Shown here: piece after piece, positions 23,701-49,733 of the stretch | Numbering within the stretch: the first letter of the stretch is position 1 | Layout of the letters: each line of letters begins with the position of its first letter | DNA from: Icerya purchasi | Taxonomy: Eukaryota; Arthropoda; Insecta; Hemiptera; Monophlebidae | DNA: 64,000 bases | Assembly: GCA_039619475.1 (NCBI GenBank) | Contig: CM077115.1 | Span: 595,349,643-595,413,642, forward strand | Direction: 5' to 3' | The notes under the pieces: generated by a model | Databases searched by the model: none | Seen by the model: only the letters and a program-made list of their open reading frames with translations | What the model was told of the DNA's origin: nothing | Program-made: the position numbers and the translations under genes

Positions 23701-24055
23701 GTAGATGTGTAGATATATATGTAGATATATATGGATATATATATCCTGTGTGTGAATTACACTGCTCTAGATTTTGCAATATCATTGGTAGAAGTTTAGA
23801 TGTTATCACATATTTTGAGATATTAGTATATTGAAATATAAATAATGTAATTCTTAAATTCCATTAAAGATTCTGTCCCACTTTTGTTGTTTATTTTTAT
23901 TTAAAAGGAATTTGTTTCCTGAATAGTGTATTTAGGGAACAGTTTGAAATACAGTATGTATATAATAAGCATCATTTAAGCCTTTAAAAACATTCTATAA
24001 ATTATTGATGATGAATAAGCATTAACTCTCTGTGATCAAAGTAGATTGTGAAGTG
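23701..24055. other. Non-coding AT-rich gap
   Basis: Begins with a GTAGATATATAT-type simple repeat, then unassigned sequence. No remnant of the packaging ATPase, which would precede the next gene in element A, could be recognised. Confidence 0.4.
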
Positions 24056-24064: not shown

Positions 24065-24111
24065 AGAAGATTTACATGTAAGTTTTGATGAATTTTTAAT
24101 TACCTGTAATA

Positions 24112-26611: not shown

Positions 26612-26639
26612 AGTAGCTTAAAAAAGCAGGGACTGGGCC

Positions 26640-27070
26640 AGTTTCCCCCGATTTCCCCCGATTTTCCCCGGGGGTAGGTACCCCCGAGCGTCCAGGTTTC
26701 CCCCAATTTTCCAGGGCAGCTGCTGAAATTTCACCCCAAATTCTCATCCAGGTGCTCAAAACTCACCCCAATTTGTGTCCAGCTGCTCAAAACTCACCCC
26801 AATTTGTGTCCAGATGTCCAAAATTCACCCAAATTTATGTCCAGGTGCTAAAAATTAACCCCAATTTCTCTTTTAGAGCCCAAAGTTACCCCAAGTTTCC
26901 CCTGATTTCACGGATTTCCTCTGAGTTTTCCCTGTTTACCCCTGATTCCCCTGGACAGTTCTGCTAATTCGATCCCTAATTTCCATCAAGGTAGACAAAA
27001 TCCACCCCAATTAGCGTACAGGTGCTGAAAGTTCACCCCAATTTGTATCCATATGGTTAAAATTCACCCA
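26640..27070 (+). repeat. Terminal minisatellite of left arm
   Basis: Diverging units of about 30 bp with the core CAAAACTCACCCCAATTTG and spacer TGTCCAGCTGCT recur from about 26,720 to 27,070, after C-rich repeats TTTCCCCCGATTTCCCCC. The mirror image lies at 49,265-49,700. It makes the element ends far more GC-rich than its interior. Confidence 0.8.
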
Positions 27071-27893
27071 AGTTTCCCCAAAATTTCTTCAAATTTTCAC
27101 GATTCCCCGTTCATACTGCTATCTGTAAATGCGCTCGCACCGTTTCCACGCATATATTCAACATAGCCTTAGCCGCCATGAAAGTGTACTCGCTTTCCCA
27201 TACCCGCGCCTTCCATCATCATGTGTATGTATTATATATGACTCTTCGTGTAATATATGTAGCATACTTTTTAATTTTCATTTTTCGAGGTTGGGAGGGG
27301 TAAAATTTTGCCAGAGTGATAAAAACGTTTGAATCTCAACACTTAGAACCCAAAATTTAAAGGAATTTTCAGAGTCGTGCTCCGTTCCGGCATTTTTTTT
27401 TTTCAAAAAATTTTATCTTTAAAGAAAATATTTGAACGTTCCATCAGTCGAATGAGAGCGGGCGAGTGTGCTGCTATGGGATGTATTATGTAAGCGCGAG
27501 CGCGGCTGTAATGGAAATATTTAAATGTTCCAGCAACTAGTTGAAACTGTCACCAGGTGAGGTGAATTCCACTCGTTCGTTTTGAAATTAACCAGCCGAT
27601 CATCTATGCTCACTCTCACACGCCACCGATAGAAACCTGTTCGCGATCGCTACAAGTTCATACACACGCACGTACACACCACCACTTGATAAATATTTTT
27701 TCGTCTTTTTCCGCTTCCGATCTTATACTTAATCCGTTGATATTTTTTTATTTTTATTTTTACGTATTCTCTGTTCATTGCAAAAGCACACCGTCCATTC
27801 CTGCACACATATCAAGCATTGAGTTAACCTGTACAAAGGTACACTGTACTATTCCATGCACGCTCTGTCGCCACCGAAATAAACACCGCGATA

Positions 27894-27895
<2 letters not shown>

Positions 27896-27949
<54 letters not shown>
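27896..27949 (+). repeat. (CA)n microsatellite
   Basis: More than 20 CA units; the mirror at about 48,410-48,450 is a shorter (GT)n run. Length difference between arms shows they are not one sequence read twice. Confidence 0.9.
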
Positions 27950-27952
<3 letters not shown>

Positions 27953-29175
27953 CACCACCACTTCATACATATTTTATTTTCGAGTCAAAATATTATAGAA
28001 TTAGCCTAACTATATTTTTCTTTTACGCTTCTGTTTATTTCTTCCGAACGTTCATAATTTTTATATTTTTTTGTTTCTCTGATTCTAAAAATTAATCTGT
28101 CAATGTATTAGCCACTCTTTCATTCGCATTCATCTGCTACCGGTAGTTCTCTTATCGTTCATAATAACTTTTTCAAGTCTAATATTATAGAATCAGCCTA
28201 ATTATATTTTTTTTCGCTGCCAATCATTTCCTCCGTCCGTTGATAATTTTCTTATTTTATTTTTTTCTCAGGTTCTAAAAATAAATCCATTGATATCTTC
28301 ACTAGTATGATTGCGTAAACATCTTCTAACGGTATTCCTCATATTGTTCATAATAATTTTTCATGTCTATGTATTATGGAATTAGTCTAAAATATATTTT
28401 TTCCCCTCTAAAGTCTTTTTCCAATCGTAAGTATTCAAAAATTAATTCGAGTATATTTTTATTTAAAGCTGTTTCATATTTTCCCTCTCCCCTATCCACC
28501 CTACACAAATTTAAATTCTTTTCTATTATTTTTCATGAGTACATCCCCCCCCCCCCTTGAATCTACAGTGAAACCATACCATTCATTCCCACGCATCCAT
28601 CTGCTAACAATGATTTTCTCATCATTCATAATAATTTTTTTCGAATCTGTTAGTTTAAGATTATTTCATTTTTTTCAAACTCTAAATATTTTTTTTTTTT
28701 TTTCAATATCTTCCATATTTTCCCCCAATATGTCCGCATACGCTCATAATGCAAAGGTACTCTGCTTATTTCCTTGCATGAATGTTGCTATGTCGTTGAT
28801 TTCGATCATGTGTCAAGGTCATCAAGTCTGCCCAGATCTTCTCCTTCATATCTTTTGTAGAAAAACCGGTTGACATGTACACACCTACACACAAACACCC
28901 ATAACCTAAAGATCACCTGTAAATTTCGTTCATTTGCGTATGCAACCAGCTTTCAACAAAGGAATGTGGTTTTTCTGGTGCAACCCGCCCTCTTCAAAGA
29001 CATGCATCGAGCTAGAATCTCGAAAGGATCTGTTCAAACAGTCAGTATTAGTGTTACATTAAACGTGTAGAATTTGTTGAAGCTGTGTTCTTCACACATT
29101 AATAAAAGTTTGCTCTAACATTAAAAGTAATAATTTTCTACATTCTTAGTAAAAAGTTAAAAATATTATTCAAAC

Positions 29176-30311
29176 ATGAATAACAATACCGATTCGATTG
29201 ATATTAAAGTCGACGAATTTATTCAGAATTCATTTTCGAGTGATAGTGTCTCGCATACAACTTCATCACCTCAATCACAGCAATCAGATGATGGTTATAC
29301 AGCAGAAGGATCAACATCTTCTGTACATAATATCATTGGTCCTGTATTATTATCAGAACAAGCAGATATAGCGGAATATTTTGTAAATATCAGCATCCAT
29401 ATAGATTGTGATTATGGTTTTCGAGTAACCGAACTAGCAATGATTGATATGTCTGGTGGAAAGTGTTTGCATACACTGTATAAGCCAAGCAGAGCATGGC
29501 ATTCATCAAAAACGCCACATTTACAATGTTCTTCGATGAGTCATCACTTGAAAAATCCTTCATTATTTCCCTCTCGGGAAGAAACATTTATGGCACGCGA
29601 TATATTCACGATAATATCTCAAAAACCGAGAGCTCGCATATATATTTTAACGGTATATGCTAAACTTACACTAATGGAACTTAACGAAAAGTCTGAATTG
29701 TTGAGTGATTTAGACTATGAAATCGTTAATATGGATAAAGTCTTTCGACTACATAGTATTGAGAATCTACATGAAGAGTATTTTGGTATAAGCAATTTGA
29801 TAACATGTAAACATCATAATGAGAATGATAGTTTTCATTGTGCAGCGAAAAACGTTATGGTAATGAAGGCCTGGTACGATCATGTTATCCATCCGCTGAA
29901 GCTTATGAATAATCTCAATATAAATGATTTAAGTCAGTTGTTCATTACAGCCACCAAAGAAATGATAATTACATTATTTCCAAGTTGTGTTGGAGACATT
30001 TATGCATTTCTACAGATAGATTAAAACCGGATGATATGATAAAATCACTTCTACCATGTTACGAGCATGAGCATGATGAAGAATTCGTCTATGAGGTGTG
30101 TTGATCAATAGAGCAACAGGTAGAAAACCTAGTAGTTTACGAGACACAGCATGTTCAAAGAAAAAAAACGAACTAGCACAAGCAGATCAGAGTTGCAACA
30201 TACGAGTGGGAGTTATATTCTCGAGAACAACAGCTTGATTATAAAAAACGTCGAAGATACATGTATCTATCTGTGAACAATTATCACATCAAACATAAAA
30301 AGGTTGACTAA
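29176..30311 (+). pseudogene. Exonuclease-like gene, left-arm copy
   Basis: 282-aa frame from ATG 29,176 to 30,024, related to 5281-6186: a poly-Ser/Gln N-terminus, then ISIHIDCDYGFRVTELAMID, LYKPSRAW, IYILTVYAKL, YEIVNMDK, CKHHNENDSFHC and VMKAWYDHV. Family homology continues after 30,024 in other frames (a short KSLLPCYEH-type segment, then a basic tail ending near 30,311), so the gene is broken near its C-terminus. Several motifs differ from the element A protein, including the KG of its IYVKGDSK block, so nuclease activity is doubtful. It is the only gene recognised in the arm, about 2.6 kb from the end. Confidence 0.65.
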
Positions 30312-32689
30312 AAGATTATTATTTTCTTTTTTCGTTCATTCTCGCCACTATTACCACTGGCGCCCCCACTGTCAAGACCTCTAAACATACATTACTAACC
30401 TCGCCAAAACTATAATATTTTTTCTCTTTGTTAGTAAATTAACCCAAGTATATTTTTATTCATTTGTTACACAAACATTTGTTCAAATCTTTTGTAATAT
30501 ATCGTACACACATTTATAGCCCACAGACACTACTTGCTTCATTACCACGAATACATCTCTTTCATGGTCACTTATCGTAACATAGTTTTTCCTGAAATTG
30601 TAAAAAAATTCTCTTCGTTCCATTCTTCCAAGTTTTCCAAATTTCAAATCATGCATAATTATTTAAGAATCAAATTAAGTATATTTTATCATTTCCAAAA
30701 AATTAATCATCTCTGTACAAGGCATTAACTCATTTTTCAAAACAAACATATTATTTTTTTAATCTATCATACATATCATTTTTATCATTCAAATTTTTTT
30801 CTGAATTCACAAATAGTTAACCTATAGAAAACATCTTATTGTAAACATACATGACGAAGTCACTCCTCATAATTACATCATGAATTCATTTTTTTTCATT
30901 TTTTTTTTTACCATCATAAAATTGTAGTAGTGTTTTTAATTTTTTTATTTTCCATACATGAAAAAAGCAATAAAATCACGACATCTATGAATACACACCA
31001 TATGCTTCCAATAACCTATCATGCATTTTTTTAAATTAGTCCAAGCATACTATTTTTCAATAACAAAGCCGATTATACATAATTTTTTCTTCTATATAAT
31101 CACTAATCTATGAAAACACTTGATTCGTTTTACTCATACTGTAGCAACCACTCCTTTTCCCTCATGCTAACAAACTTCAAAATTTAATAATATAACACGA
31201 AATTAATCTAAATATCTGTTCATGCTATTAAAATTAATATATCAATCTTTACATTCCTTTTGTACATTTCTGAAAAAATCCTACAACATGTTTTAAAATT
31301 AATCGAAGTATACTATTTTATTACCTAAAATCAATTATTCTCTCATACAGTTTTTTCCAATCATCCATAATGTTTTTTCTGTATTGTCATTATTACAAAG
31401 TCACACAAAACAACAACACATTTTTAATCATAATGAATCCTTCATTCCATTCCGTTCATGCTATATACCATTATCATTCAATTCAACGTTATGAAATTAG
31501 TCTAAATATACATTCATGCTAGCAAAGTTATTATCTCACCCTTTGCATTGTTCCAAGATGATTTATTTGACATTTTTTCTTTAAATTTCCCTCATACTAT
31601 TATTTTTGAAATGTAGGATGATGACTATGATTAGAATTCATGATTATGAAGAGAGAGATGCATGGTGAAATTGTATTGACATTATATGCGAGATGATGTG
31701 TGTTTGTGGGTGAGTATGGATGCATGTAAAATATATGAGTGTGTTAGTAGAAAACATCCGTTCATGCGTGAACACAGGTACAGATACAGTTATAGAATGA
31801 GAGAGGTAAAAATATATATTTTGTTATGTTTGATATGTGCATGATAAAGAGGTTAACAAAGAATAATCACATTACCCTCACAACTTAGACATTGAGTTTT
31901 ACCTTTGCAATATTTTAGATGTAAAAGCAGTGACATTGACATGTGGTAAACGTTTTCATCACTTTTGACTAATTATAACCAATTTTCCAACATTTCTCTT
32001 CGTTTTTCCTACATTTTAATACTTTTACACCGTTTCAGTCAATTTTTGCTATTTAATGCCAATTTTTTCCAGTGTTTTTACCACCTTTCTCACAATTTTC
32101 ATCATTCTTTCATCATCTTTGTTAGGTTTTTTCTTACAACTCTTTAACATTTCGATCGTTGCTAGTGATAACCATCATTATTTATACTTTCAATCCTTCC
32201 ACTTCAGCAATGCACACATACAGCTTAGCAATCGCCGCAGCCATTGAACGTTGTAGGACTGCAATTGTGATCTCCATTTGATTATTGGGATTTAAAAGTC
32301 ACATCTTTGAACGCTTGATCTAATGCATCAACATGATTTTTTTTGTATTCGCCCACCCGCTGCTGGAGGTTCCACTTGATATTCTCAACAGACTATCATA
32401 CAGTCGTTTAATAAGAGAATCTGTAAGACCCGAGACATTTACTTAACGTTTTCCCAACACATTTACAGACATACCTTGTACACTAAGGAAATCTTTAAAC
32501 ATCTCTGTAACCATTCCTTTTAAGCTGGCGGGAGCAAGGAACTCTTATAAACGTTTATCAATCAGCACTTCATCGTTCATCGCCCTGGTTTCACTCGCCG
32601 TTTCACAGACATGTAATAAACATTTTCTTCTTTTACAATTTTCTTATGCTATAACACTATTACATCATTTTTCCTCGTTTCTAACTAAT
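30312..32689. other. AT-rich arm interior without genes
   Basis: Non-coding, with diverged repeat phrases such as AAATTAATCTAAATAT and GAAATTAGTCTAAATATACATTCATGC about every 240-310 bases, like the units in element A. Mirror: about 37,245-39,655. Confidence 0.55.
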
Positions 32690-33065
32690 TGTAACCAGTT
32701 TTCCATTATTTCTTAGCATGTTGTTCTGTTTAGGACCTTTTGCGCTATTTTTTCATCAATTTATGTTATTTCACATCGTTTTTCTGGTGATTTTAGTGCC
32801 TTTCACACAATTTTACTAATTATTTTCGACTATTTCTTAACATGTTCTTCTGTTTTAGGTCCTTTTTGCACTATTTTTTCATCAATTTATGTTATTTCAC
32901 ATCGTTTATCTGGTGATTTTAGTGCCTTTCACACAATTTTACTAATTATTTTCTACTATTTCTTAACATGTTCTTCTGTTTTAGGTCCTTTTTGCACTAT
33001 TTTTTCATCAATTTATGTTATTTCACATCGTTTTTCTAATGTTTTACTACCTTTCACACAATTTT
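32690..33065 (+). repeat. Tandem repeat, unit about 125 bp
   Basis: Three copies, with CCTTTTTGCACTATTTTTTC recurring at about 32,861 and 32,987, and a variant at 32,736. The mirror array is at about 36,865-37,245. Confidence 0.8.
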
Positions 33066-34668
33066 ACTCAATTTTTCCCCATCTTTGAAGATTTTTTTTT
33101 CATTTATCTCATACATTATATCTCCGAATGTGACGATTAGCTATCCTTTTAAGTACATTTTTTTTAATTTGATATAAGTGAGGAGTACTTTTCAGGTCGA
33201 CATGTATACTTCGTGATATGACATTCAATTCATTATTAATCTATGTTTCAACAGGTTTGTGGTCGGTTGTTGGAGGTTTACAGAACTTTCTGTTGCATTG
33301 CTTATAGTATAATGGTTCTTGTGTGCTAGTGAGATGATGGTGTTTTGTGGGGAATAATAAACATGGGAAAGAGAAGGAGTGCGCCCCATCAAGCAGGGGG
33401 GAGTGATGCTTCGTAATTAACTTGGGTATTGCGCGCATTGCATGGCAGTTATAATATGCTCGAGCAAAAATTAGTCGCTGTACTCGCATGGTGTTCATGT
33501 TATTCATTAAATGTTCACACTGAGAGATGCAATGGGCTCATCGACAGATGGATCCATGCTATCATTTCGATTTTTATAATTGTAATCTGCACTGAGCATG
33601 TATGTATTACAACGAACCCATCAACTCTGTTACAGATGGTAATGTTTGAGGATAGATAGTGAAACGTTCATTAGAACATGAATGTGTATACAAAGTGTTG
33701 TTAAATCACATGTATGTCATCAAATTAACTAAAATGTTGCGTCTATAGTAAAAAAAAGAAATGAGGGTTTTTCCCTAAGAGGGCGACTATAATAAAATTG
33801 ATGCGATTTTAGATGGAAATGGGAGTATTTTACAGTAAAAACGCTGTTTTGCACCTAAATGGTGAATATTCTGGAGGTTAAACGGCATTTTTCACACAAA
33901 ATTTGATGTTTTTTTATAAATGTGGCTATTTTACTCCTACATGGAGTAATTTCTGCATGAGGAGTACTTTTTGGACTGACATGTATACTTCTTGATGTGG
34001 TATTCAATTCATTCTGAAGCTATGTTTGAACAGCTTTGTAAATGGTTGGGGGGGAAGTTTACAGAACTTTTCTGCTGCATCAGTTATAGTATAATAGTTT
34101 TTATATGCTAGTGAGATGAAGGTATTTGGTTAGGAATAATAAATATGGGTAAGAGGTGGAGTGCATCCCAATCAAGCATGGGAGAGTATTGTTTGAGAAT
34201 TAACTCCATTATTTGCACACATTGCAATACAATTATAATCAGTTTGGTCAAAATTACTTGTTATATATCGTTCATGTTATACATTAAACATTCACACTGA
34301 GAAACGAACTGGACTCTTCGACATCAAGGTCCATGCGATCATTACACTTTTTTTCAACAATTTGTGACGTTTCATACTATTTTTTAATGTTTTAAACGGC
34401 TCTTATGATGTATTTCAGCACATTTTCACAGGTACAAAGTTCGTAATGCGAAATAATTTGAATTATTTCGACAGTCTTTACACACAAATAAAATACTATA
34501 CCATTAACACACTCAACATGAAACAAATCATTACAAATAGAAATAAACAACGAAATTGCTCAGAAATTTTAATGAAATTCAAGAAGCATAGTGTATATGA
34601 AAATGAATATATTCTTTAAATCAACACTCCAAACTTGCAGTTTCAGAATTATATCAGACCCTGACTAA
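33066..34668. other. Inner arm sequence without genes
   Basis: Contains a diverged internal duplicate of about 750 bp: 33,180-33,600 (AGGAGTACTTTTCAGG...GACATGTATACTTC) resembles 33,960-34,330. No gene seen. Mirror: 35,263-36,865. Confidence 0.5.
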
Positions 34669-34719
34669 GAACCCCGTTGTTCCTTTTGCTGCATATATAT
34701 GTATACTCGTATAATCATA

Positions 34720-34763
34720 TAATATTAAATTATACATATACCTACATATATACATATATATGT

Positions 34764-34813
<50 letters not shown>

Positions 34814-35215
34814 ATATGTCGATATATATGTCTATATATGTAGATATATATATGTATACATGTAGATATATATATATATGTATATATGTAGATATATATG
34901 TGTATATATGTAGATATATGTATGTATATATGTAGATATATGTATGGATATATGTAGATATATATATGTATTTACATAGATATATGTGTATATATGTAGA
35001 TATATGTAGATATATATGTATTTATGTAGATATATATGTATATATGTAGATATATATGTATATATGTAGATATATATGTATATATGTAGATATATATGTA
35101 TATATGTAGATATATATGTGTATATATGTACAAATATATGTATATGTATGTAGATATATATGTATATATTTAGATATATATATGTACATATGTAGTTATA
35201 TGTATAATTTAATAT
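34720..35215. repeat. Central AT-rich repeat at the palindrome axis
   Basis: Composed of (TA)n and a TATATGTAGATA-type repeat. The axis computed from the matching GAACCCCGTTGTTCC / GGAACAACGGGGTTC edges (34,669 and 35,262) is at about 34,965. The sequence could extrude as a cruciform. Confidence 0.85.
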
Positions 35216-38200: not shown

Positions 38201-39654
38201 TTTACATGCATCCATACTCACCCACAAACACACATCATCTCGCATATAATGTCAATACAATTTCACCATGCATCTCTCTCTTCATAATCATGAATTCTAA
38301 TCATAGTCATCATCCTACATTTCAAAAATAATAGTATGAGGGAAATTTAAAGAAAAAATGTCAAATAAATCATCTTGGAACAATGCAAAGGGTGAGATAA
38401 TAACTTTGCTAGCATGAATGTATATTTAGACTAATTTCATAACGTTGAATTGAATGATAATGGTATATAGCATGAACGGAATGGAATGAAGGATTCATTA
38501 TGATTAAAAATGTGTTGTTGTTTTGTGTGACTTTGTAATAATGACAATACAGAAAAAACATTATGGATGATTGGAAAAAACTGTATGAGAGAATAATTGA
38601 TTTTAGGTAATAAAATAGTATACTTCGATTAATTTTAAAACATGTTGTAGGATTTTTTCAGAAATGTACAAAAGGAATGTAAAGATTGATATATTAATTT
38701 TAATAGCATGAACAGATATTTAGATTAATTTCGTGTTATATTATTAAATTTTGAAGTTTGTTAGCATGAGGGAAAAGGAGTGGTTGCTACAGTATGAGTA
38801 AAACGAATCAAGTGTTTTCATAGATTAGTGATTATATAGAAGAAAAAATTATGTATAATCGGCTTTGTTATTGAAAAATAGTATGCTTGGACTAATTTAA
38901 AAAAATGCATGATAGGTTATTGGAAGCATATGGTGTGTATTCATAGATGTCGTGATTTTATTGCTTTTTTCATGTATGGAAAATAAAAAAATTAAAAACA
39001 CTACTACAATTTTATGATGGTAAAAAAAAAAATGAAAAAAAATGAATTCATGATGTAATTATGAGGAGTGACTTCGTCATGTATGTTTACAATAAGATGT
39101 TTTCTATAGGTTAACTATTTGTGAATTCAGAAAAAAATTTGAATGATAAAAATGATATGTATGATAGATTAAAAAAATAATATGTTTGTTTTGAAAAATG
39201 AGTTAATGCCTTGTACAGAGATGATTAATTTTTTGGAAATGATAAAATATACTTAATTTGATTCTTAAATAATTATGCATGATTTGAAATTTGGAAAACT
39301 TGGAAGAATGGAACGAAGAGAATTTTTTTACAATTTCAGGAAAAACTATGTTACGATAAGTGACCATGAAAGAGATGTATTCGTGGTAATGAAGCAAGTA
39401 GTGTCTGTGGGCTATAAATGTGTGTACGATATATTACAAAAGATTTGAACAAATGTTTGTGTAACAAATGAATAAAAATATACTTGGGTTAATTTAGTAA
39501 CAAAGAGAAAAAATATTATAGTGTTGGCGAGGTTAGTAATGTATGTTTAGAGGTCTTGACAGTGGGGGCGCCAGTGGTAATAGTGGCGAGAATGAACGAA
39601 AAAAGAAAATAATAATCTTTTAGTCAACCTTTTTATGTTTGATGTGATAATTGT

Positions 39655-39664
39655 TCACAGATAG

Positions 39665-39667
<3 letters not shown>
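39655..39667. repeat. 13-bp target-site duplication, left
   Basis: TCACAGATAGATA, identical to 46,082-46,094. The left arm has one copy of the corresponding sequence near 30,260-30,275. Confidence 0.88.
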
Positions 39668-39703
<36 letters not shown>

Positions 39704-39751
39704 GGGCTCGGTGTTAACACTGACCCAACTACATGGACCTAGATCACCTAC

Positions 39752-42700
39752 TCAGATTCTGAGGCGATCGGAGATAGAAAGTATAAAGGAAAGAAGGAGG
39801 GGAACAACGGCTGGAGATGGGAAGGAAAGGATAAAGGAAGCATTGAAAGGGGTAGGAAGATCTAACGCCAAAAGTTCGGCGTATAGATGAGAGCACTGAG
39901 GAAAAAGAGCAGAGCATTCGAAAAGGATATGGTTGGGGTCACATATAAAGGGAGGATCATTTGAGTGGAGAGGGCAAAAGGGAGAAGGTGAAAGAGAAAA
40001 AGAAAAACGAGAAAAGGGAAGGAGGGAATGGCCAAGTCTCAGTCTGATTAAAGAAACAATAGCCGAGCGCCGAGAAAAAGGAAGAAATTGGTACCAAGGC
40101 TGTGAATTGGGAGTAGGCTGTAGGAGGAGATAGAAAGAGGAGCGATTGGCAAAAAAGGAAGGGTAGATGTCAACCCACAGTCTGGTATGGAGACTTGCGG
40201 AGAGGAAAAGGATGTCTGAGGCAGGAAAATGCGGAAGGAATGGACCATTGAGAGACGCTGAGCGAGCTAGGAAGTCAGCTGCTTCGTTGCCCTCAATCCC
40301 AGAGTGGCCAGGAACCCATAAAAAGTCAATAAGGATAGAACGTGCTAAGCGCAAGTTGGAGATAGAGGCACGAACAGAAAGAATAATGTCATTAGTCGAG
40401 TGGGAAGGAGGAGAAGAGATAGCTTGCAGCACGGATTTGGAATCAGTAATAATGAGAAACTTACAGATCCCTCTTGAAGAGGAAATAAAGGAGACAGCAC
40501 GGAGAATGGAGACTGCTTCAGCAGAAAAAATGGAACAAAAGGAAGGAAGTTTGAAGGATTCCGAGTGATTAAGCGAGGGGGCTGTAAAAGCACCGCCCAC
40601 CCCGCAATCATTTTTGGAACCATCAGTGAAAATTTTTACATGACGGGGAAATGAAGAATTTAATATGTGGACATATTCACTGACCACTGTGCTCTGAGGA
40701 GTGGAGTTAGCACGAAGAGGAAGAGAGGAGAATGAGACGGGAAGACATGTACTATTGAAATCAAAAGAAAAGTAAGGAAGCTTATTGCGGGAAAAGACAT
40801 AAGGAGAGAACTTAGAGACCCGAGCAGCTATGTGCGCAAGAACCGGGATTTTGTGAGGAACGAAGCGCCAGTGGTCATTGATATACAGATAGGAAGAAAT
40901 AAGTTTAGATGAAGAGATCGGGAGGCGTTTAATTAGAAAACGGTAACCAAGCAGAGATCTGCGGATAAACAGGGGTTTAATATTAGATTCAGACAAAATG
41001 GCAGGAATGGGAGAAGACTTTAGGGCCCCAATGCAGAGCCGAAGACAGGAGTTTTGGATTCTATCAAGTTTGCGCAGGAGGGAGTTTGAGGCATTGCCGT
41101 ATAAGAAGGAACAGTAGTCTAGTTTGGAACGAATGATGGATTTATAGAGAATTATGAGAATATATGGATCACCGCCCCACTTGAGAGGACATAAGGCTTT
41201 CAGGAGATTTAGTCTCTTAAGACAAGATATATAAAGGTACTCGATATGTTCTTGGAAAGAGAGTCGACTGTTTAGGAAAAGACCAAGATAGCATATGGAA
41301 TTAACAATAGGAATAGGATAGTTGGAGGAGATGATGTTTACCAGAGCACGATTATATGGGCGGAGGGAGAAAATAATAGAAGAAGACTTGGAAGGAGAAA
41401 GAGAAAGAAAAGCACTGGAGAGGGAACTACTGAGGACTGATAGAGAACAATTAATCTCCTCGTTAGCTGTAGCTAGCACGTCTGAAGTGGAGTAGATAAG
41501 GATATCATCCGCAAAAAGGAGAGAAGAAGAAGGAATGCGAAGAGTAGCGATATCAAGGAGATAAATATTAAAAAGAGAAGGACTAAGACAGGAACCCTGA
41601 GGCAAGCCGCGGTAACAACGTCTGATTGTTGAAAAGGAGGGAACAGAAAGAAAAAGAGATCTATTTTGGAACAGATTAAGAATAATGGTAACGAGAATAG
41701 GAGGAATATTGAGGGAAATGAGCTTAGAAGCCAGTGAAGGAAGATGAACATTATCAAACGCAGATGCGACGTCGACGAATGTGGCAATAGTAAACTTTCT
41801 ATCTAGGAATGATTTGTAGATGTCCGATAGAAAGGTACTAATGCAGTCGATTGGACCAAGACCAGGGCGAAAACCAAACATATTGGGAGGGAGGAGATTG
41901 TTATGCTCCAGCCACCAGACTAAACGATTGTTGATTAAGCCTTCGAAAAGTTTTCGAAGACAAGAGGCGAGGGAGATAGGTCGGAAAGAAGACTGGTTTC
42001 TTTTAGGAATAGGAATGATTATAAAATCATTCCAGGATTTAGGAGTGTGACCAGATATTAGAAAGGAGTTATAGATAGCTAAGAGAGAATGCAACGAGGA
42101 AGAGGAGAGATTTTTAAGGATTGGATATGAGAGGCCATCTAGTCCGGGGGTGGAGTTAGTGGATTTGTTAAGAACGGATAGGAGCTCATCGTAACGAAAA
42201 GGAGAGGAAAGAAAATGGTCTTCAGAGGTAGAGGAGTAAGAGGGGGAACTAATTTCTTCAAGAGAAGGAACATAAGCGGGCGAGATAAAGTCCAAAAAGG
42301 AATGAAGATGTGGCAACGCAGGAGTAGAATGGAGAGGGCGCTCGGAGGAGGGAAATCTAAAGGCCCTAGCTAACTTCCAAATTTGAGAGAAGGGCGTATC
42401 TCTAGAAAATGAGGAACAGAAACTTCTCCAAGAATTCCTCTTGGCAGCCTTTAGGATGCTACGGGCTCTAGCGTTAGCTTCTTTGTGAGCTAGGAAGTTA
42501 GACATAGAAGAGCAGGAGCGAAAAGTTCTAAAAGTGTCGGTACTCTTCCTGAAGGCTGCTTTACACTCGTCATTCCACCAGAGTGAGGAGGCAGCAGAAG
42601 TTTTACGACAGTTATTAGAAGGGAAGGGAGGGGATGAGAGGGAAAGAGCAGAATAGAGAGACTGGGTGAAAAGGTTGTATTGAGATAGAGGATCGGAATC

Positions 42701-43495
42701 AGCCTGAATAGGAGAGAGAGAGGAATCGACTAAAGAACGAAATTTGCCCCAATCAGTTTTGGAGAGAAGCCAATGAGGAGAATGAAGAGGTTTGAAGCAT
42801 GAAGGAGGTAGGACGTCATTAAGAGTTAGAACAATAGGAGAGTGATCACTGCCAAAAGTACCATCAAGAGTTCTCCAAGAGCAGTTTAGACCAAAATTGG
42901 GAGAAGAGAAAGAAAGATCGACTGCACTAGGAGATGAAGGGTTTTTGAAGCAGGTAGGAGAAGAATCATTAAGGAGGAAGAGGTTATGATTTAGGATGAA
43001 GTTTTCAAGGATAGAGCCATTGCTGTCGTGACCAGAGCAGCCCCAGAGTGGAGAATGGGCATTCCAATCACCCCCAATGATGAATGGATTTGAAAGAGTC
43101 GAAAGGAATGGGTGAAGGGGAAGCTGAGCAAGACTAGAATTTGGTGGATTGTACACACAAGCGATGTGAATAGGGGTAGGAAGGAGATTTGATAGAGAAA
43201 TATGTGCCATATTAGGGAGATTAGGATAAGGAGGAGGAAGGAAGGAAATACTGTGCGACTGGTATGGTAAGTCGTTTCTAACAAGAATAGCCACTCCACC
43301 ATACCCGTCTACACGATCAGAACGTACTATGAAGAAGTCTTTGAAGTGGATTTTTGAAGTGGATTTTAACCAAGTTTCAGACAACAATGCTACTTGAATG
43401 TTGTAGAGGTCTAATAGCCCCTCTAACGCTTGTTTATTTGCATGTATGCTACGACAGTTCCACTGAAGAATATTTAAAGAATTATTCTGAGACAT
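39752..43495 (-). CDS. I-like LINE ORF2: endonuclease, reverse transcriptase, RNase H
   Basis: 1,247-aa intact protein. The APE-type endonuclease (residues 1-230) shows LQWNCRSI, SETWL, GGDWNAHSPLWG and FGSDHSPIVL. Reverse transcriptase (about 430-720) shows FRPISLASCLRKLFE, TFVDVASAFDNVH, GLPQGSCLSPSLFN and the catalytic FADD. RNase H (about 930-1,060) shows FTDGSKNDCGVGGAF, a conserved Glu, ITDSKSVL and WVPGHSGIEGNEAADFLAR. A Cys/His segment (CPLHSNDPPFICDPNH) follows. The enzyme nicks target DNA and copies the element RNA in place. A 474-base gap separates it from ORF1. Confidence 0.96.
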   Translation of the reverse strand: MSQNNSLNILQWNCRSIHANKQALEGLLDLYNIQVALLSETWLKSTSKIHFKDFFIVRSDRVDGYGGVAILVRNDLPYQSHSISFLPPPYPNLPNMAHISLSNLLPTPIHIACVYNPPNSSLAQLPLHPFLSTLSNPFIIGGDWNAHSPLWGCSGHDSNGSILENFILNHNLFLLNDSSPTCFKNPSSPSAVDLSFSSPNFGLNCSWRTLDGTFGSDHSPIVLTLNDVLPPSCFKPLHSPHWLLSKTDWGKFRSLVDSSLSPIQADSDPLSQYNLFTQSLYSALSLSSPPFPSNNCRKTSAASSLWWNDECKAAFRKSTDTFRTFRSCSSMSNFLAHKEANARARSILKAAKRNSWRSFCSSFSRDTPFSQIWKLARAFRFPSSERPLHSTPALPHLHSFLDFISPAYVPSLEEISSPSYSSTSEDHFLSSPFRYDELLSVLNKSTNSTPGLDGLSYPILKNLSSSSLHSLLAIYNSFLISGHTPKSWNDFIIIPIPKRNQSSFRPISLASCLRKLFEGLINNRLVWWLEHNNLLPPNMFGFRPGLGPIDCISTFLSDIYKSFLDRKFTIATFVDVASAFDNVHLPSLASKLISLNIPPILVTIILNLFQNRSLFLSVPSFSTIRRCYRGLPQGSCLSPSLFNIYLLDIATLRIPSSSLLFADDILIYSTSDVLATANEEINCSLSVLSSSLSSAFLSLSPSKSSSIIFSLRPYNRALVNIISSNYPIPIVNSICYLGLFLNSRLSFQEHIEYLYISCLKRLNLLKALCPLKWGGDPYILIILYKSIIRSKLDYCSFLYGNASNSLLRKLDRIQNSCLRLCIGALKSSPIPAILSESNIKPLFIRRSLLGYRFLIKRLPISSSKLISSYLYINDHWRFVPHKIPVLAHIAARVSKFSPYVFSRNKLPYFSFDFNSTCLPVSFSSLPLRANSTPQSTVVSEYVHILNSSFPRHVKIFTDGSKNDCGVGGAFTAPSLNHSESFKLPSFCSIFSAEAVSILRAVSFISSSRGICKFLIITDSKSVLQAISSPPSHSTNDIILSVRASISNLRLARSILIDFLWVPGHSGIEGNEAADFLARSASLNGPFLPHFPASDILFLSASLHTRLWVDIYPSFFANRSSFYLLLQPTPNSQPWYQFLPFSRRSAIVSLIRLRLGHSLLPFSRFSFSLSPSPFCPLHSNDPPFICDPNHILFECSALFPQCSHLYAELLALDLPTPFNASFILSFPSPAVVPLLLSFILSISDRLRI

Positions 43496-43969
43496 GTGGT
43501 TTAGGAGGTGGAGAAAGGTAAGGAATGAGTGTTATAGGAAAAGGAATGCAAGGAGGAATGGAATCGTAACAATAAAAATAATTTAAGGCGATGAAAGAAA
43601 AAAAAAATGGGCTCGCGGAATCTTGGTTATGTGCCAGTTTAGCAACCTTCAAGTTTAATTGCGGCCAAATTCGGAACAGAGTGAGCGAAAGCAAGAATAG
43701 AATAACCTGCACGAACTGGTGTAGGACCAGTTTGTAGGCCTCCTTCTGCTTAACGCCATCACCAACGAGATGATAATTTTCTGGAATGAACCGTAGCGTG
43801 GAAAATTCCATATGTAAAGCGTGCAAGTAAGCAATTGTACTGAACTGTAAGAAATACAGAAAGAAGAAGAAGGGTATTGAAGGGTAGAAGGAGAAAAAGA
43901 AGAAAAAGAAAAAAAAAAGAAAAAAAAAATAAAGGAAGTAGAAAACAAGAGAAACAAAAATAGGTTGAA

Positions 43970-45841
43970 TTATTTGAAGTTAACGCTGTTAGACAACAAG
44001 GATGAAAGACTGTCGATGAAAGAAGAGGACGAAGGTATATTGTAAGATGCAAGAAGCTCCATAATAGCAGCAGAGAGACTGGAGATGGTTGAAGTGAACT
44101 CTGTGGGAGAAGGCGAAGTGTTGGAAAGAGGAACAGATGAGGGACAAGCAGGCAAGAGAGGATTAAAAGAGGGGGAAGACACTTTATTTAGAGCCCATCC
44201 AACTGAGGGTGAATGAGGGTGATAAGAAGGGATAGAAGGAAATTGGGGGAGCGGTTTATGATGCGGTTTAGACTTGTGAAATTTATGGAATGTTGGAGAT
44301 TTTGGACGAGGAAGAGAGGGAACCTTAGAAGAGTTGATGGACATGTTTGGAGAAGGAATGGGGGCTGCAGCCCGGTTGGCATATGAAAAGGCTTGAGTTA
44401 CAGAGTTAGACGATTTGATCTTGACGGCTTCATGGAAAGAGATATTTTCAAAGGCCATGATCCTTTTTATATCTTTTTGTCTTTGCCACTCTGGACAGCG
44501 ACGATCTGAGGAAACATGGGAACCTTTACAGTTGCGACAGAAAGGAAGTTCCTGTAGATTGGGGCATTCCGAGAAGGAGTGTTTGGATGCACAATGGGAG
44601 CAGATGGAGTGGGAGCTGCGACAATTGCGTGCAATATGTCCGAAAAGAGAACAATTGGAACACTGGGTGGGAGAACGAATGCTAGGAGAGACTGAGAAGC
44701 GAAGTCCATATATGGATACGAATTGAGGGAGGTAGGATTTGGCGAATTTCAGTTCGACACTTCTAGTCGGAATTTTAGAACCTTCTGAAGAGCGGAGAAT
44801 ACGTCGTAATGAAATGACCGGAATAGAGGATACAAGTCCTTCTTTGATGTCTTCCAATGGAAAGGAAGGATGGACACCGGTTATAACTCCAATCCTATAT
44901 AACGCATTATGCGGGATAAATGCGTTAAGATTATGGGATTTAAAGAAGGGAGTCTTAGAAAGGAATTCATTAGCGGAAGAGGCAGAGGGGAACAAAACAG
45001 AGATACGCCCTTTACCCTGTGGGACAATATCTGAAAAAGAGGTAGAAATTTTGTTGATTAATCTAGCCAAGGCTAGCGGATGAAAGTATCCAATATTCTT
45101 ATCAGGGGATGAATTTTCAACAAGAATTGAAAAGGGACCTGGGTGGTCTGGAGGAAAAATGCCCTGATCGCTGCAGAGATTTTCAGAGATATTAACGGTA
45201 TTATCATTACCAGTGATATTATTATTGCTGGTGTTGTTATTACTATTAATGCCATTATTGCTATCATTAACATTGTCATTACTGTTATTATCATTACTAT
45301 TACTATTAGTAGTATTATCATTATCAGTATTGGTACTATTATTGTTACTACTACTACTATTTTGGTTATTATTATTATTATTATTACTATTATTATTATT
45401 ACTATTATTATTATTACTATTATTATTATTATTACAATTATTGTTGTTAATGTTGTTATTGTTATTTTTATTGCCATTGCTATTATTATTGTTATTTTTC
45501 TTTTTAGTATTGTTGTCGTTTGTATTATAATTGGAGGTGGAAGAGGTCGAGTTTTGGCTTTGGTTGATATTATTCTTATTAATATTAGTAATATTATGGG
45601 AATCTATATTACAGTTTTCAGTGGCTTTAACGCTATTAGAATTTGGTAAACTAACCAGATTAGGAAGATCAGGCTGAGAAAGCCGCAGATCCTTGTTAGG
45701 TAAAGTCGAAGACGGCGAGAGGGGACCGGAGAGTTTACGCTTAGCAGCAACGTCAACCTCCATTAGGTTGAGCGACATGCTTTTGCTGGCTTTAGCATCC
45801 TTGGCGGAGGCCGCCGGGCGGCCCCCACTGAACGAGCTCAT
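43970..45841 (-). CDS. I-like LINE ORF1: zinc-knuckle nucleic-acid-binding protein with Asn-rich tract
   Basis: 623 aa from ATG 45,841. Residues about 75-220 are dominated by Asn with Ser/Asp/Thr, encoded by an (AAT/AAC)n-type microsatellite at about 45,180-45,530. A conserved folded region follows (about 230-370). Three Cys/His knuckles come next: CSNCSLFGHIARNC, CSHCASKHSFSEC and CRNCKGSHVSSDRRC. A Pro/Ser/His-rich tail ends the protein. In I-type LINEs ORF1 coats the RNA. The Asn tract length is unusual and may vary between copies. Confidence 0.93.
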   Translation of the reverse strand: MSSFSGGRPAASAKDAKASKSMSLNLMEVDVAAKRKLSGPLSPSSTLPNKDLRLSQPDLPNLVSLPNSNSVKATENCNIDSHNITNINKNNINQSQNSTSSTSNYNTNDNNTKKKNNNNNSNGNKNNNNNINNNNCNNNNNSNNNNSNNNNSNNNNNNNQNSSSSNNNSTNTDNDNTTNSNSNDNNSNDNVNDSNNGINSNNNTSNNNITGNDNTVNISENLCSDQGIFPPDHPGPFSILVENSSPDKNIGYFHPLALARLINKISTSFSDIVPQGKGRISVLFPSASSANEFLSKTPFFKSHNLNAFIPHNALYRIGVITGVHPSFPLEDIKEGLVSSIPVISLRRILRSSEGSKIPTRSVELKFAKSYLPQFVSIYGLRFSVSPSIRSPTQCSNCSLFGHIARNCRSSHSICSHCASKHSFSECPNLQELPFCRNCKGSHVSSDRRCPEWQRQKDIKRIMAFENISFHEAVKIKSSNSVTQAFSYANRAAAPIPSPNMSINSSKVPSLPRPKSPTFHKFHKSKPHHKPLPQFPSIPSYHPHSPSVGWALNKVSSPSFNPLLPACPSSVPLSNTSPSPTEFTSTISSLSAAIMELLASYNIPSSSSFIDSLSSLLSNSVNFK

Positions 45842-46081
45842 TTACCAGCACGAGGAGATGTAGAAAACGTGAACGATAAAAAAAAAGAAAATAAATTAAT
45901 CGCTGAAATATGAAATTGAAATCGAACGAACGTAAAAATAGATAAATGAAATAAATACGCCGCAGTTAAATAAATTAAAACGATCTCACCGAGTAAGCTG
46001 ATAAGAGATAACAGATAACAATCGGCGTTTCGAATTAACAATAACGCGGAGAGACAACCAACTTTAATACGACAGATCACA

Positions 46082-46094
46082 TCACAGATAGATA
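46082..46094. repeat. 13-bp target-site duplication, right
   Basis: TCACAGATAGATA, matching 39,655-39,667. Confidence 0.88.
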
Positions 46095-47182
46095 CATGTA
46101 TCTTCGACGTTTTTTATAATCAAGCTGTTGTTCTCGAGAATATAACTCCCACTCGTATGTTGCAACTCTGATCTGCTTGTGCTAGTTCGTTTTTTTTCTT
46201 TGAACATGCTGTGTCTCGTAAACTACTAGGTTTTCTACCTGTTGCTCTATTGATCAACACACCTCATAGACGAATTCTTCATCATGCTCATGCTCGTAAC
46301 ATGGTAGAAGTGATTTTATCATATCATCCGGTTTTAATCTATCTGTAGAAATGCATAAATGTCTCCAATACAACTTGGAAATAATGTAATTATCATTTCT
46401 TTGGTGGCTGTAATGAACAACTGACTTAAATCATTTATATTGAGATTATTCATAAGCTTCAGCGGATGGATAACATGATCGTACCAGGCCTTCATTACCA
46501 TAACGTTTTTCGCTGCACAATGAAAACTATCATTCTCATTATGATGTTTACATGTTATCAAATTGCTTATACCAAAATACTCTTCATGTAGATTCTCAAT
46601 ACTATGTAGTCGAAAGACTTTATCCATATTAACAATTTCATAGTCTAAATCACCCAACAATTCAGACTTTTCGTTAAGTTCCATTAGTGTAAGTTTAGCA
46701 TATACCGTTAAAATATATATGCGAGCTCTCGGTTTTTGAGATATTATCGTGAATATATCGCGTGCCATAAATGTTTCTTCCCGAGAGGGAAATAATGAAG
46801 GATTTTTCAAGTGATGACTCATCGAAGAACATTGTAAATGTGGCGTTTTTGATGAATGCCATGCTCTGCTTGGCTTATACAGTGTATGCAAACACTTTCC
46901 GCCAGACATATCAATCATTGCTAGTTCGGTTACTCGAAAACCATAATCACAATCTATATGGATGCTGATATTTACAAAATATTCCGCTATATCTGCTTGT
47001 TCTGATAATAATACAGGACCAATGATATTATGTACAGAAGATGTTGATCCTTCTGCTGTATAACCATCATCTGATTGCTGTGATTGAGGTGATGAAGTTG
47101 TATGCGAGACACTATCACTCGAAAATGAATTCTGAATAAATTCGTCGACTTTAATATCAATCGAATCGGTATTGTTATTCAT
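46095..47182 (-). pseudogene. Exonuclease-like gene, right-arm copy, split by LINE
   Basis: 282-aa frame from ATG 47,182 to 46,334, differing from the left copy at a couple of residues (GDLDYE for SDLDYE, CIGDIY for CVGDIY). It stops at the same codon as the left copy, so the break is shared. The remaining C-terminal coding remnant continues to the LINE insertion site at 46,094 and resumes beyond 39,667, so this copy is additionally interrupted. Confidence 0.65.
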
Positions 47183-48406
47183 GTTTGAATAATATTTTTA
47201 ACTTTTTACTAAGAATGTAGAAAATTATTACTTTTAATGTTAGAGCAAACTTTTATTAATGCGTGAAGAACACAGCTTCAACAAATTCTACACGTTTAAT
47301 GTAACACTAATACTGACTGTTTGAACAGATCCTTTCGAGATTCTAGCTCGATGCATGTCTTTGAAGAGGGCGGGTTGCACCAGAAAAACCACATTCCTTT
47401 GTTGAAAGCTGGTTGCATACGCAAATGAACGAAATTTACAGGTGATCTTTAGGTTATGGGTGTTTGTGTGTAGGTGTGTACATGTCAACCGGTTTTTCTA
47501 CAAAAGATATGAAGGAGAAGATCCGGGCAGACTTGATGACCTTGACACATGATCGAAATCAACGACATAGCAACATTCATGCAAGGAAATAAGCAGAGTA
47601 CCTTTGCATTATGAGCGTATGCGGACATATTGGGGGAAAATATGGAAGATATTGAAAAAAAAAAAAAAATATTTAGAGTTTGAAAAAAATGAAATAATCT
47701 TAAACTAACAGATTCGAAAAAAATTATTATGAATGATGAGAAAATCATTGTTAGCAGATGGATGCGTGGGAATGAATGGTATGGTTTCACTGTAGATTCA
47801 AGGGGGGGGGGGGGATGTACTCATGAAAAATAATAGAAAAGAATTTAAATTTGTGTAGGGTGGATAGGGGAGAGGGAAAATATGAAACAGCGTTAAATAA
47901 AAATATACTCGAATTAATTTTTGAATACTTACGATTGGAAAAAGACTTTAGAGGGGAAAAAATATATTTTAGACTAATTCCATAATACATAGACATGAAA
48001 AATTATTATGAACAATATGAGGAATACCGTTAGAAGATGTTTACGCAATCATACTAGTGAAGATATCAATGGATTTATTTTTAGAACCTGAGAAAAAAAT
48101 AAAATAAGAAAATTATCAACGGACGGAGGAAATGATTGGCAGCGAAAAAAAATATAATTAGGCTGATTCTATAATATTAGACTTGAAAAAGTTATTATGA
48201 ACGATAAGAGAACTACCGGTAGCAGATGAATGCGAATGAAAGAGTGGCTAATACATTGACAGATTAATTTTTAGAATCGGAGAAACAAAAAAATATAAAA
48301 ATTATGAACGTTCGGAAGAAATAAACAGAAGCGTAAAAGAAAAATATAGTTAGGCTAATTCTATAATATTTTGACTCGAAAATAAAATATGTACGAAGTG
48401 GTGGTG

Positions 48407-48451
<45 letters not shown>

Positions 48452-49264
48452 TATCGCGGTGTTTATTTCGGTGGCGACAGAGCGTGCATGGAATAGTACA
48501 GTGTACCTTTGTACAGGTTAACTCAATGCTTGATATGTGTGCAGGAATGGACGGTGTGCTTTTGCAATGAACAGAGAATACGTAAAAATAAAAAAATATC
48601 AACGGATTAAGTATAAGATCGGAAGCGGAAAAAGACGAAAAAATATTTATCAAGTGGTGGTGTGTACGTGCGTGTGTATGAACTTGTAGCGATCGCGAAC
48701 AGGTTTCTATCGGTGGCGTGTGAGAGTGAGCATAGATGATCGGCTGGTTAATTTCAAAACGAACGAGTGGAATTCACCTCACCTGGTGACAGTTTCAACT
48801 AGTTGCTGGAACATTTAAATATTTCCATTACAGCCGCGCTCGCGCTTACATAATACATCCCATAGCAGCACACTCGCCCGCTCTCATTCGACTGATGGGA
48901 CGTTCAAATATTTTCTTTAAAGATAAAATTTTTTGAAAAAAAAAAATGCCGGAACGGAGCACGACTCTGAAAATTCCTTTAAATTTTGGGTTCTAAGTGT
49001 TGAGATTCAAACGTTTTTATCACTCTGGCAAAATTTTACCCCTCCCAACCTCGAAAAATGAAAATTAAAAAGTATGCTACATATATTACACGAAGAGTCA
49101 TATATAATACATACACATGATGATGGAAGGCGCGGGTATGGGAAAGCGAGTACAATTTCATGGCGGCTAAGGCTATGTTGAATATATGCGTGGAAACGGT
49201 GCGAGCGCATTTATAGATAGCAGTATGAACGGGGAATCGTGAAAATTTGAAGAAATTTTGGGGA

Positions 49265-49700
49265 AACTTGGGTGAATTTTAACCATATGGATACAAATTG
49301 GGGTGAACTTTCAGCACCTGTACGCTAATTGGGGTGGATTTTGTCTACCTTGATGGAAATTAGGGATCGAATTAGCAGAACTGTCCAGGGGAATCAGGGG
49401 TAAACAGGGAAAACTCAGAGGAAATCCGTGAAATCAGGGGAAACTTGGGGTAACTTTGGGCTCTAAAAGAGAAATTGGGGTTAATTTTTAGCACCTGGAC
49501 ATAAATTTGGGTGAATTTTGGACATCTGGACACAAATTGGGGTGAGTTTTGAGCAGCTGGACACAAATTGGGGTGAGTTTTGAGCACCTGGATGAGAATT
49601 TGGGGTGAAATTTCAGCAGCTGCCCTGGAAAATTGGGGGAAACCTGGACGCTCGGGGGTACCTGCCCCCGGGGAAAATCGGGGAAAATCGGGGGAAACTG
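49265..49700 (-). repeat. Terminal minisatellite of right arm
   Basis: Mirror of 26,640-27,070: GGGGTGAGTTTTGAGCA with GACACAAATT units and G-rich ends. It is followed by the AAGCTACT terminus at 49,727. Confidence 0.8.
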
Positions 49701-49727
49701 GCCCAGTCCCCGCTTTTTTAAGCTACT

Positions 49728-49733
49728 GGAAGA
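49728..49733. repeat. Right target-site duplication GGAAGA
   Basis: Matches 26,606-26,611. Confidence 0.8.

Follow-up and report, generated by a model that had tools for sequence, protein, structure and literature searches.

Palindromic Polinton derivatives form a mobile family in Icerya purchasi

The palindrome and its neighbouring Polinton

The window analysed here is a stretch of 64,000 nucleotides from the genome of Icerya purchasi (contig CM077115.1). Its segment 26612-49727 is a palindrome with two inverted arms of 8.09 kb each and a loop of 520 bp. The arms are 98.6-99.0% identical by BLAST, the lower value including the loop, and the element runs from AGTAGCTT to AAGCTACT with GGAAGA on either side. 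The near-identical arms, terminal motif and duplication described in the initial annotation are all seen, by BLAST and by reading of the flanks. The arm length of 8.35 kb given there shrinks to 8,094 bp for the arms proper, since the loop is a minisatellite of TGTAGATAT type with all its units in one direction. Without a nested LINE the element measures ~16.7 kb, nearly all of it contributed by the arms.

The outer 3.66 kb of the arms differ by 17 substitutions and 21 indel positions; the inner 4.4 kb by 2 substitutions, outside the LINE junction. The LINE occurs only in the right arm, between copies of a 13-bp duplication, TCACAGATAGATA (39655-39667 and 46082-46094). Joined together, 400 nt of left flank and 130 nt of right flank give a gapless alignment over the junction to a LINE at 52-53 kb, whose reading frame is open through the junction. 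The window palindrome is therefore a true insertion, into a LINE reading frame.

Table 1 Features of the palindrome and of the Polinton beside it, in window positions
Feature	Position	Strand	Evidence
Complete Polinton, right 21.8 kb; separate from the palindrome	1..21812		genes, termini, TIRs, duplication
Target site duplication GGAAGA, left copy	26606..26611		flank reading; rebuilt empty site
Left arm of palindrome, 8,094 bp	26612..34705	+	arm self-comparison, BLAST
C-rich terminal minisatellite, 31-bp unit	26717..26884	+	repeat analysis
Subterminal ~190-bp repeats	27962..28464	+	sequence comparison with window Polinton
287-aa open frame, left arm	29161..30024 (stop to stop; first ATG 29176)	+	ORF list; homology
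Axis loop: one-directional AT-rich minisatellite	34706..35225		arm limits and repeat analysis
Right arm, split by nested LINE	35226..49727	-	arm self-comparison, BLAST
Nested LINE: endonuclease, RT, RNase H	39668..46081	-	domain matches, junction reading
287-aa open frame, right-arm copy	46334..47197	-	ORF list; genome matches of frame
Target site duplication GGAAGA, right copy	49728..49733		flank reading

The complete Polinton spans C1:595346273-595371454, extending 3.4 kb beyond the left edge of the window. It has TIRs of 1028 bp that are 98.8% alike, a GTCTCT duplication and a length of ~20 kb once an inserted LTR element is discounted. Its PolB is not recognised by Pfam, and a middle piece matches the phage DNA polymerase profile phrog_1907 (1.6e-9); the rest we take to be PolB from familiar motifs and from its position within a Polinton.

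The tip AGTAGCTTA is common to the palindrome and the complete Polinton: the window contains three copies where 0.41 would be expected, and the one outside the palindrome is a Polinton tip. Segment 26819-26902, in the region of the terminal minisatellite, has a 69% match to the end of the Polinton (21598-21683), and the main pieces of the subterminal repeats are 65-69% identical to those of the Polinton at 19570-20850. In addition, the 287-aa arm frame is homologous to the Polinton gene at 5188-6186, with 23% identity over 213 columns. Tip, subterminal repeats and gene homologue together identify the palindrome termini as Polinton termini. The initial annotation had proposed Polinton-type ends with a 6-bp duplication and suggested looking for a complete Polinton with the same terminal minisatellite and gene; the proposal holds, and a complete Polinton with the same tip and a homologue of the gene lies in the same window.

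A deletion derivative elsewhere in the genome (L021/L022) has ends that match the palindrome arm at 88% and 94%, enclosing a Polinton ATPase (89% identical to that of the window Polinton), PLA2 and gene X. The window palindrome has a 6-bp target site duplication, AG...CT termini (AGTAGCTT) and TIR sequence in common with gene-carrying members, more weakly with the window Polinton. It lacks short TIRs around a single-copy gene block. No PolB or rve integrase was found in its arms by ORFs and tblastn, nor a capsid gene, and we therefore class it as a non-autonomous derivative and not as a Polinton proper. A separate, non-Polinton superfamily of DNA transposons with 6-bp duplications, having acquired a Polinton gene, would account for arms in which neither integrase nor polymerase is detected and which have in common with the window Polinton only the tip and the ~65-69% repeats. 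We hold this very improbable: palindrome-type ends surround Polinton genes in L021/L022, and palindromes with Polinton INT, ATPase, capsid genes or PolB, described below, likewise carry AGTAG ends between 6-bp duplications.

The arm frame has dN 0.030 and dS 0.065, and its differences fall 10/10/9 by codon position, a pattern that gives no clear sign of constraint. It ends early compared with its Polinton homologue, and a copy in L056 continues with a different reading. That it is a pseudogene, as the early end might suggest, is weakened by the 127 of 136 scored genome copies (the best of 3,073 candidates) that have no stop within the 287 residues. Protein searches gave no match at E 0.001 for the arm gene or its homologue; the arm gene has none among viral contigs, nor a 6.7-kb arm piece among phage records. 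Pfam returned nothing significant for either protein and PDB sequences nothing for the homologue, the sole protein tried there, of which an AlphaFold model built from two sequences is poor (mean pLDDT 34). The earlier description of the gene as exonuclease-like finds no support in any of these.

A family of palindromes across the genome

A genome search with the arm ORF gave 3,073 first-look candidates, of which the 136 best were scored. Among these, 124 form 62 head-to-head (+/-) pairs, and the opposite arrangement does not occur; 62 pairs is the copy number that we claim. Ends were retrieved for 10 pairs from this search, picked for their usual spacing; in all 10 the 6-bp duplication is perfect, and the elements measure 16.3-17.0 kb. 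The proposed search by terminus also found other elements: 10 pairs, with seven perfect duplications, one with one mismatch, one with two and one with none. Duplications are perfect in 17 of these 20 pairs, the chance match of one 6-mer being ~0.0004. Members of the palindrome family occupy dozens of sites, if not more.

Judged by its geometry alone, the window copy would suit one defective snap-back genome and one integration event. The 62 inverted pairs among the best matches, with duplications of their own in 10 of 10 retrieved, refute this reading and leave it next to no probability. False palindromes assembled from chimeric or folded-back reads are barely more credible. C1:390282549-390316515, which contains a run of N, does resemble a doubled assembly, C2:466225461-466253667 may be another, and in L019/L020 the inversion extends past the element. 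Against an artefact stand the many sites with different flanks and 6-bp duplications, and at the window copy the fixed differences between arms, the LINE confined to one of them and the open LINE frame of the joined flanks.

Arms are closer within copies than between them. Over 415 nt, with L019/L020 set aside for its inversion beyond the element, the closest relative of an end is the opposite end of the same copy in 18 of 20 copies; median identity is 99.8% within a copy and 85% between copies. Per kb, the two arms of one copy differ by 0.03-0.42% in the six copies used, whereas L009 and L027 differ from the window copy by 0.85-9.6%; the six leave out L011, L015, L019 and L025, which are interrupted, short or odd, and L021, which has ordinary TIRs. 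The within/between ratio starts at 0.04 in the outermost kb, stands at 0.06-0.14 over the following four bins and at 0.02-0.05 in the three closest to the axis, so that the fall in arm differences from the ends towards the axis largely, not wholly, tracks between-copy variability. Copies with a readable minisatellite axis all have that one axis. The minisatellite hides the founding point of the family.

Sister palindromes with Polinton genes

Other palindromes carry either integrase or PolB, again with AGTAG ends and 6-bp duplications. The element at C2:283677005-283695957 (18.95 kb) has integrase-to-capsid genes on both arms, which are 99.8% alike, and a TATTGC duplication; it is the one element of its kind in which the duplication was examined. 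Its arms are 95-96% identical to the window Polinton, the outer 1.7 kb excepted: it is the left half of a Polinton, doubled in inverted form around a loop. The turn lies within a gene, between window positions 5239 and 5379, at TTTTATTT, an AT-rich inverted microhomology of 8 nt, with a loop of about 130-132 nt. Among random turns in the same region, 15 of 199,574 have at least 8 nt, with endpoints unslid; sliding could give up to ~tenfold more, and the observation concerns one axis only. L082 and L083 have the same axis, whereas L087 (loop 141 nt) and L085 (loop 81 nt) have others, which indicates that palindromes arose more than once. Five of nine INT-pair centres retrieved show no axis within 1.1 kb.

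The PolB palindrome is 19.0 kb long, with PolB on both arms, arms 99.9% alike and a GCCGAG duplication. Of 10 further PolB pairs, taken from 15, nine have perfect duplications (7 of 10 by a cruder first rule). PolB points the other way from that expected if the PolB end of the window Polinton had folded back, and two of nine PolB palindromes have two different end subtypes. Three further +/- neighbours lie within 30 kb among the PolB matches: two fall between adjoining palindromes and one, at C1:475.54 Mb, is unexplained. The count of INT-PolB distances used 40 of the 91 PolB matches.

Full copies measured in the three kinds, with unrelated gene content, span 16.3-19.0 kb, slightly under the ~20 kb of the complete Polinton. 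Such lengths would fit a limit set by packaging.

Proposed origin and meaning

We propose, with a probability of roughly 0.7, that the window palindrome belongs to a mobile family derived from Polintons, founded by fold-back, with arms that are re-equalised. The role of a self-priming polymerase, the supply of functions in trans and a step that homogenises the arms are our inferences. A nascent or displaced Polinton strand, initiated at one terminus by the protein-primed polymerase of the element, would halt internally; a short inverted repeat would let its 3' end fold back and prime synthesis along the strand as far as the point where it began. The resulting molecule would have two identical ends, hence two good integrase sites. 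Since the family has no detected integrase, polymerase or capsid genes, complete Polintons may provide the missing functions in trans, with integration producing the 6-bp duplication. The arms would be equalised at each cycle or nearly so, both being copied from one strand, or else through repair of the long hairpin that a self-complementary strand must form.

The turn of the INT palindrome, with its 8-nt inverted microhomology and short loop, agrees with the prediction of a self-primed fold-back. The snap-back origin put forward in the initial annotation is thus partly supported, its geometry being visible at nucleotide level in this sister element; the single defective event gives way to a mobile family, and integrase supplied in trans, also proposed there, is plausible. 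The PolB orientation, the mixed PolB end subtypes, the INT-pair centres with no axis and the neighbour at C1:475.54 Mb count against our proposal, as do the hidden founding point of the window family, a microhomology that is AT-rich and comes from one axis of a sister kind, and an arm frame with no clear constraint. The within/between ratio, lowest in the three bins closest to the axis, also counts against it, since gene conversion would produce the same pattern.

Long inverted arms are good substrates for gene conversion. A fold-back type DNA transposon of Polinton descent, made palindromic by host DNA repair and kept alike by chromosomal conversion after insertion, would agree with this, with the common axis of the readable copies and with arm differences that are few throughout (ratio 0.02-0.14, lowest near the axis). 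We consider this unlikely, given the several axes and gene contents, the inverted microhomology at one axis and a ratio as low in the outermost kb as near the axis. The 1-kb TIRs of the complete Polinton are likewise kept alike, which suggests a process linked to replication.

Known systems resemble parts of the proposed fold-back family. In Foldback and MITE transposons, mobilised in trans, inverted arms also form most of the element; here the arms are 8 kb long and carry a gene, the ancestor is self-replicating and several kinds differ in gene content. AAV is primed from a hairpin, not from a protein. Its snap-back genomes are a part of the genome copied into a self-complementary duplex, according to PMC8235507. 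The INT palindrome has the layout of a snap-back genome, with one end of the parent repeated in inverted orientation about a short loop; unlike the AAV genomes, the palindromic Polinton products have been integrated, inherited and multiplied. Vertebrate Mavericks, as outlined in PMC8097293, have 6-bp duplications, AGT-type end motifs and, when intact, TIRs of 46-1,447 bp. The palindromes are like Polintons/Mavericks in their AGT...ACT ends, 6-bp duplications, size of 15-20 kb and, in the sister palindromes, Polinton genes. They differ in arms that make up nearly the whole element and, in the window family, in having no detected PolB, INT or capsid gene. No published description of a palindromic Polinton was found in titles and abstract openings of the open-access papers listed by the literature searches.

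A broader reading, to which we give somewhat less than even odds, is that some Polintons of Icerya purchasi are palindromic replicons: satellites of a virus-like transposon that arose repeatedly when nascent strands folded back, that go through a stage as a long hairpin, one arm then serving as template for both, and that borrow from complete Polintons their polymerase, their integrase and perhaps their capsid.

To our knowledge, Polinton replication has been inferred from the polymerase and never directly watched. Palindromes with their turns at short inverted repeats and with integrase duplications would record strand synthesis and self-priming, as well as an integrase that accepts molecules with two like Polinton ends. 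If the arms are equal at birth, their differences would date insertions, as those of LTRs do. Should complete Polintons be necessary to the satellites, the relation between a virus and its defective genomes would have been fixed and multiplied in a germ line.

The palindrome and the complete Polinton of the window

As the initial annotation had described, a single inverted repeat fills positions 26612-49727 and GGAAGA flanks it on both sides. Without the nested LINE and the second copy of its 13-bp duplication, the element measures about 16.7 kb. Its ends read AGTAGCTT and AAGCTACT. Joined to each other, the flanks restore a LINE sequence that is gapless at the junction when aligned to the LINE at 52-53 kb; the entire palindrome is therefore an insertion. 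Intact vertebrate Mavericks carry terminal inverted repeats (TIRs) of 46-1,447 bp in a total of 12.7-24.6 kb (PMC8097293), whereas here the arms occupy the whole element apart from a 520-bp loop and the LINE.

Features of the palindrome and of the window's complete Polinton (window positions; L056 is a stretch fetched from the genome that holds the Polinton's remainder left of the window)
Feature	Position or length	Remark
Left arm of palindrome	26612-34705	
Loop between arms	520 bp	one-directional minisatellite
Right arm of palindrome	35226-49727	interrupted by LINE
LINE nested in right arm only	39668-46081	own 13-bp duplication
Integrase of Polinton	L056:8412-9398	rve, 3e-11
Packaging ATPase of Polinton		Pox_A32
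Adenovirus-type protease of Polinton		weak match, 0.003
Double jelly-roll capsid protein of Polinton		1e-66

A complete Polinton that shares the terminal minisatellite and the arm gene, which the initial annotation had proposed to look for, was found in the same window, sharing the minisatellite in part and the gene as a homologue. It lies at C1:595346273-595371454 (C1 and C2 denote contigs) between two copies of GTCTCT, and its TIRs of 1,028 bp are 98.8% identical. Its genes, read from the left, are those of an integrase, gene X, the packaging ATPase, a PLA2 protein, the protease, a protein that we take to be penton-like, the capsid, an arm-gene homologue (23% identity, E 4e-13) and PolB. The two elements also have in common subterminal repeats, at about 65-69% identity, and the tip AGTAGCTTA, present in the window at these three ends only; past the first nine bases the tips align poorly. 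Elsewhere in the genome, the palindrome-type ends (88% and 94%) of a deletion derivative, L021/L022, enclose a Polinton ATPase 89% identical to that of the window's Polinton. Together, these shared sequences and the derivative show that the palindrome's termini are Polinton termini.

Several other insertions and fragments lie nearby. An LTR-type element at 10836-15552 (891-bp direct repeats, 99.8%) interrupts the non-coding end of the Polinton, which itself (window 1-21812 plus L056:6283-9710) apparently sits in a LINE, judging by flank frames read by eye. Directly to its left, L056:1-2895 is a further copy of the palindrome arm (89%). A gene X fragment of a second Polinton, broken in frame and 40-59% identical to gene X at 3-711, occupies 24100-24863; ahead of it, 23827-23943 is 71% similar to near-axis arm sequence at 34495-34611.

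Genome copies of the palindrome

Copies were sought in an assembly of 1,103,370,081 bases with a longest contig of 601,656,059. The published Icerya purchasi assembly, made from PacBio HiFi reads with hifiasm, is presumably the same: it totals 1,103.38 Mb and has two chromosomes, its scaffold N50 being 601.66 Mb (PMC11183206). The genome search with the terminus that the initial annotation had suggested yielded 41 matches (40 of 250 candidates scored), many of them as +/- pairs. The 6-bp duplication is perfect in seven of the ten pairs fetched first and has one mismatch in another; the deletion derivative shows two mismatches, and a pair inverted beyond the element lacks a duplication. In the five clearest pairs the arms are 98.4-99.9% identical over 5.0-8.4 kb, except for the inner 2.2 kb of L009/L010 (96.7%), a stretch running into the loop minisatellite. 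Palindromes tend to lose their centre on one side, and some copies (L011/L012, L023/L024) lack it on one side.

The 287-aa open frame of the arms gave 136 scored matches, the best of 3,073 first-look candidates. These form 62 +/- pairs (124 matches), with 12 unpaired and none in the opposite arrangement. Outer spacing is 10.4-12.5 kb in 49 of the 62, and ten pairs picked among those of usual spacing all have perfect 6-bp duplications, each different, at lengths of 16,271-17,006 bp. Two relatives depart from this plan: L017/L018 (C2:31236109-31250686) is 14.6 kb long and has gene X once, in its centre, between 6.5-kb arms of 99.9% identity, and in L019/L020 (C1:388718851-388730627), the pair inverted beyond the element, the palindrome extends at least 500 bp into the flank on each side, with no target duplication.

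Palindromes with PolB or integrase-to-capsid arms

With PolB of the window's Polinton as query, 30 of 91 scored matches (from 1,718 candidates) fall into 15 -/+ pairs, at about 60% identity to the query. C1:588142472-588161498 is such a palindrome of 19,027 bp, its arms 99.9% identical and each bearing a PolB frame of 1,242 aa; the ends read AGTAG, and GCCGAG flanks the element on either side. Ten further pairs had their ends fetched: nine have perfect duplications, and in the other an end was not found. Two observations sit badly with an origin by fold-back, in which a strand's 3' end pairs with an earlier part of the strand and is extended back to its start. In L049-L052 each arm's PolB is directed outward, its C-terminus close to the element end, whereas at its end of the window's Polinton PolB points the other way; and L059/L060 and L063/L064 are PolB palindromes with two different end subtypes, yet a perfect flanking duplication. 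Separately, a 34-kb stretch at C1:390282549-390316515 (L053-L055) holds two PolB palindrome units around an N run, with ATTATT at its bounds, and is probably a doubled assembly; at C1:475538675-475547580 a PolB gene pair has the reverse, +/- arrangement.

From 1,604 candidates the integrase search gave 122 scored matches, 22 of which make 11 -/+ pairs. At least 35 of the 100 unpaired integrases have a same-strand PolB within 15 kb, counting 40 PolB matches only; Polintons carrying both genes therefore exist alongside the palindromes. In the palindrome C2:283677005-283695957, which lies between two copies of TATTGC, the arms agree at 99.8% over 9.3 kb. Each arm carries the integrase, gene X, ATPase, PLA2, protease and penton-like genes as well as that of the capsid, which in both arms lies in more than one frame. 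The left part of the window's Polinton matches the arms at 95-96% identity, apart from their outer 1.7 kb, which has no match to the end of that element.

The axis falls in the arm-gene homologue: the left arm runs to the equivalent of window position 5239, and the other strand resumes from 5379. Both positions have TTTTATTT in common. A strand with its 3' end at 5379 would pair with 5232-5239, leaving a loop of 132 nt, and be extended back to its own start; the observed turn is the outcome expected from such self-pairing. Of 199,574 turns placed at random in this region, their two points 60-300 nt apart, 15 share at least 8 nt. L082 and L083 turn at this axis too, with a loop of 130 nt, L087 at a different one within the arm-gene homologue (141 nt) and L085 at one elsewhere (81 nt); the other five of nine fetched centres show none within 1.1 kb.

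Arm likeness and proposed origin

Ends were compared over their outer 415 nt in 20 copies, the deletion derivative included. In 18 of these an end is closest to the opposite end of its own copy, with one tie and one exception; median identity is 99.8% within and 85% between copies. Per kb bin from the end, the arms differ by 0.03-0.42% (six copies), and copies differ from the window's by 0.85-9.6% (two copies). The within/between ratio is 0.02-0.14, low at both the outer and inner ends of the arm. Had the arms been copied separately over many rounds, the figures within and between copies would be alike, and they are not. So either the arms become alike at each round or close to it, for which LTRs offer a parallel, or they are kept alike afterwards.

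AAV is known to form snap-back genomes (PMC8235507); among the titles and abstract openings of the papers listed we found no palindromic or fold-back Polintons. The initial annotation had read the window's element as a snap-back genome from one event. The microhomology at one integrase-to-capsid axis and the several axes favour the snap-back part, but a single event does not fit: palindromes appear to have been founded more than once, and some to have spread. Protein priming is established for Polintons (PMC6431247) and presumably acted in these palindromes too; supply in trans and a hairpin stage are likewise plausible. All three kinds measure 16.3-19.0 kb despite differing arm content, for which, as a guess, a packaging limit would account.

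For the observed structures, insertions, family, several axes and one microhomology, the best account is repeated founding, in which a protein-primed strand would have folded back on more than one occasion, some of the products then propagating as palindromes whose two arms would be equalised at each round.
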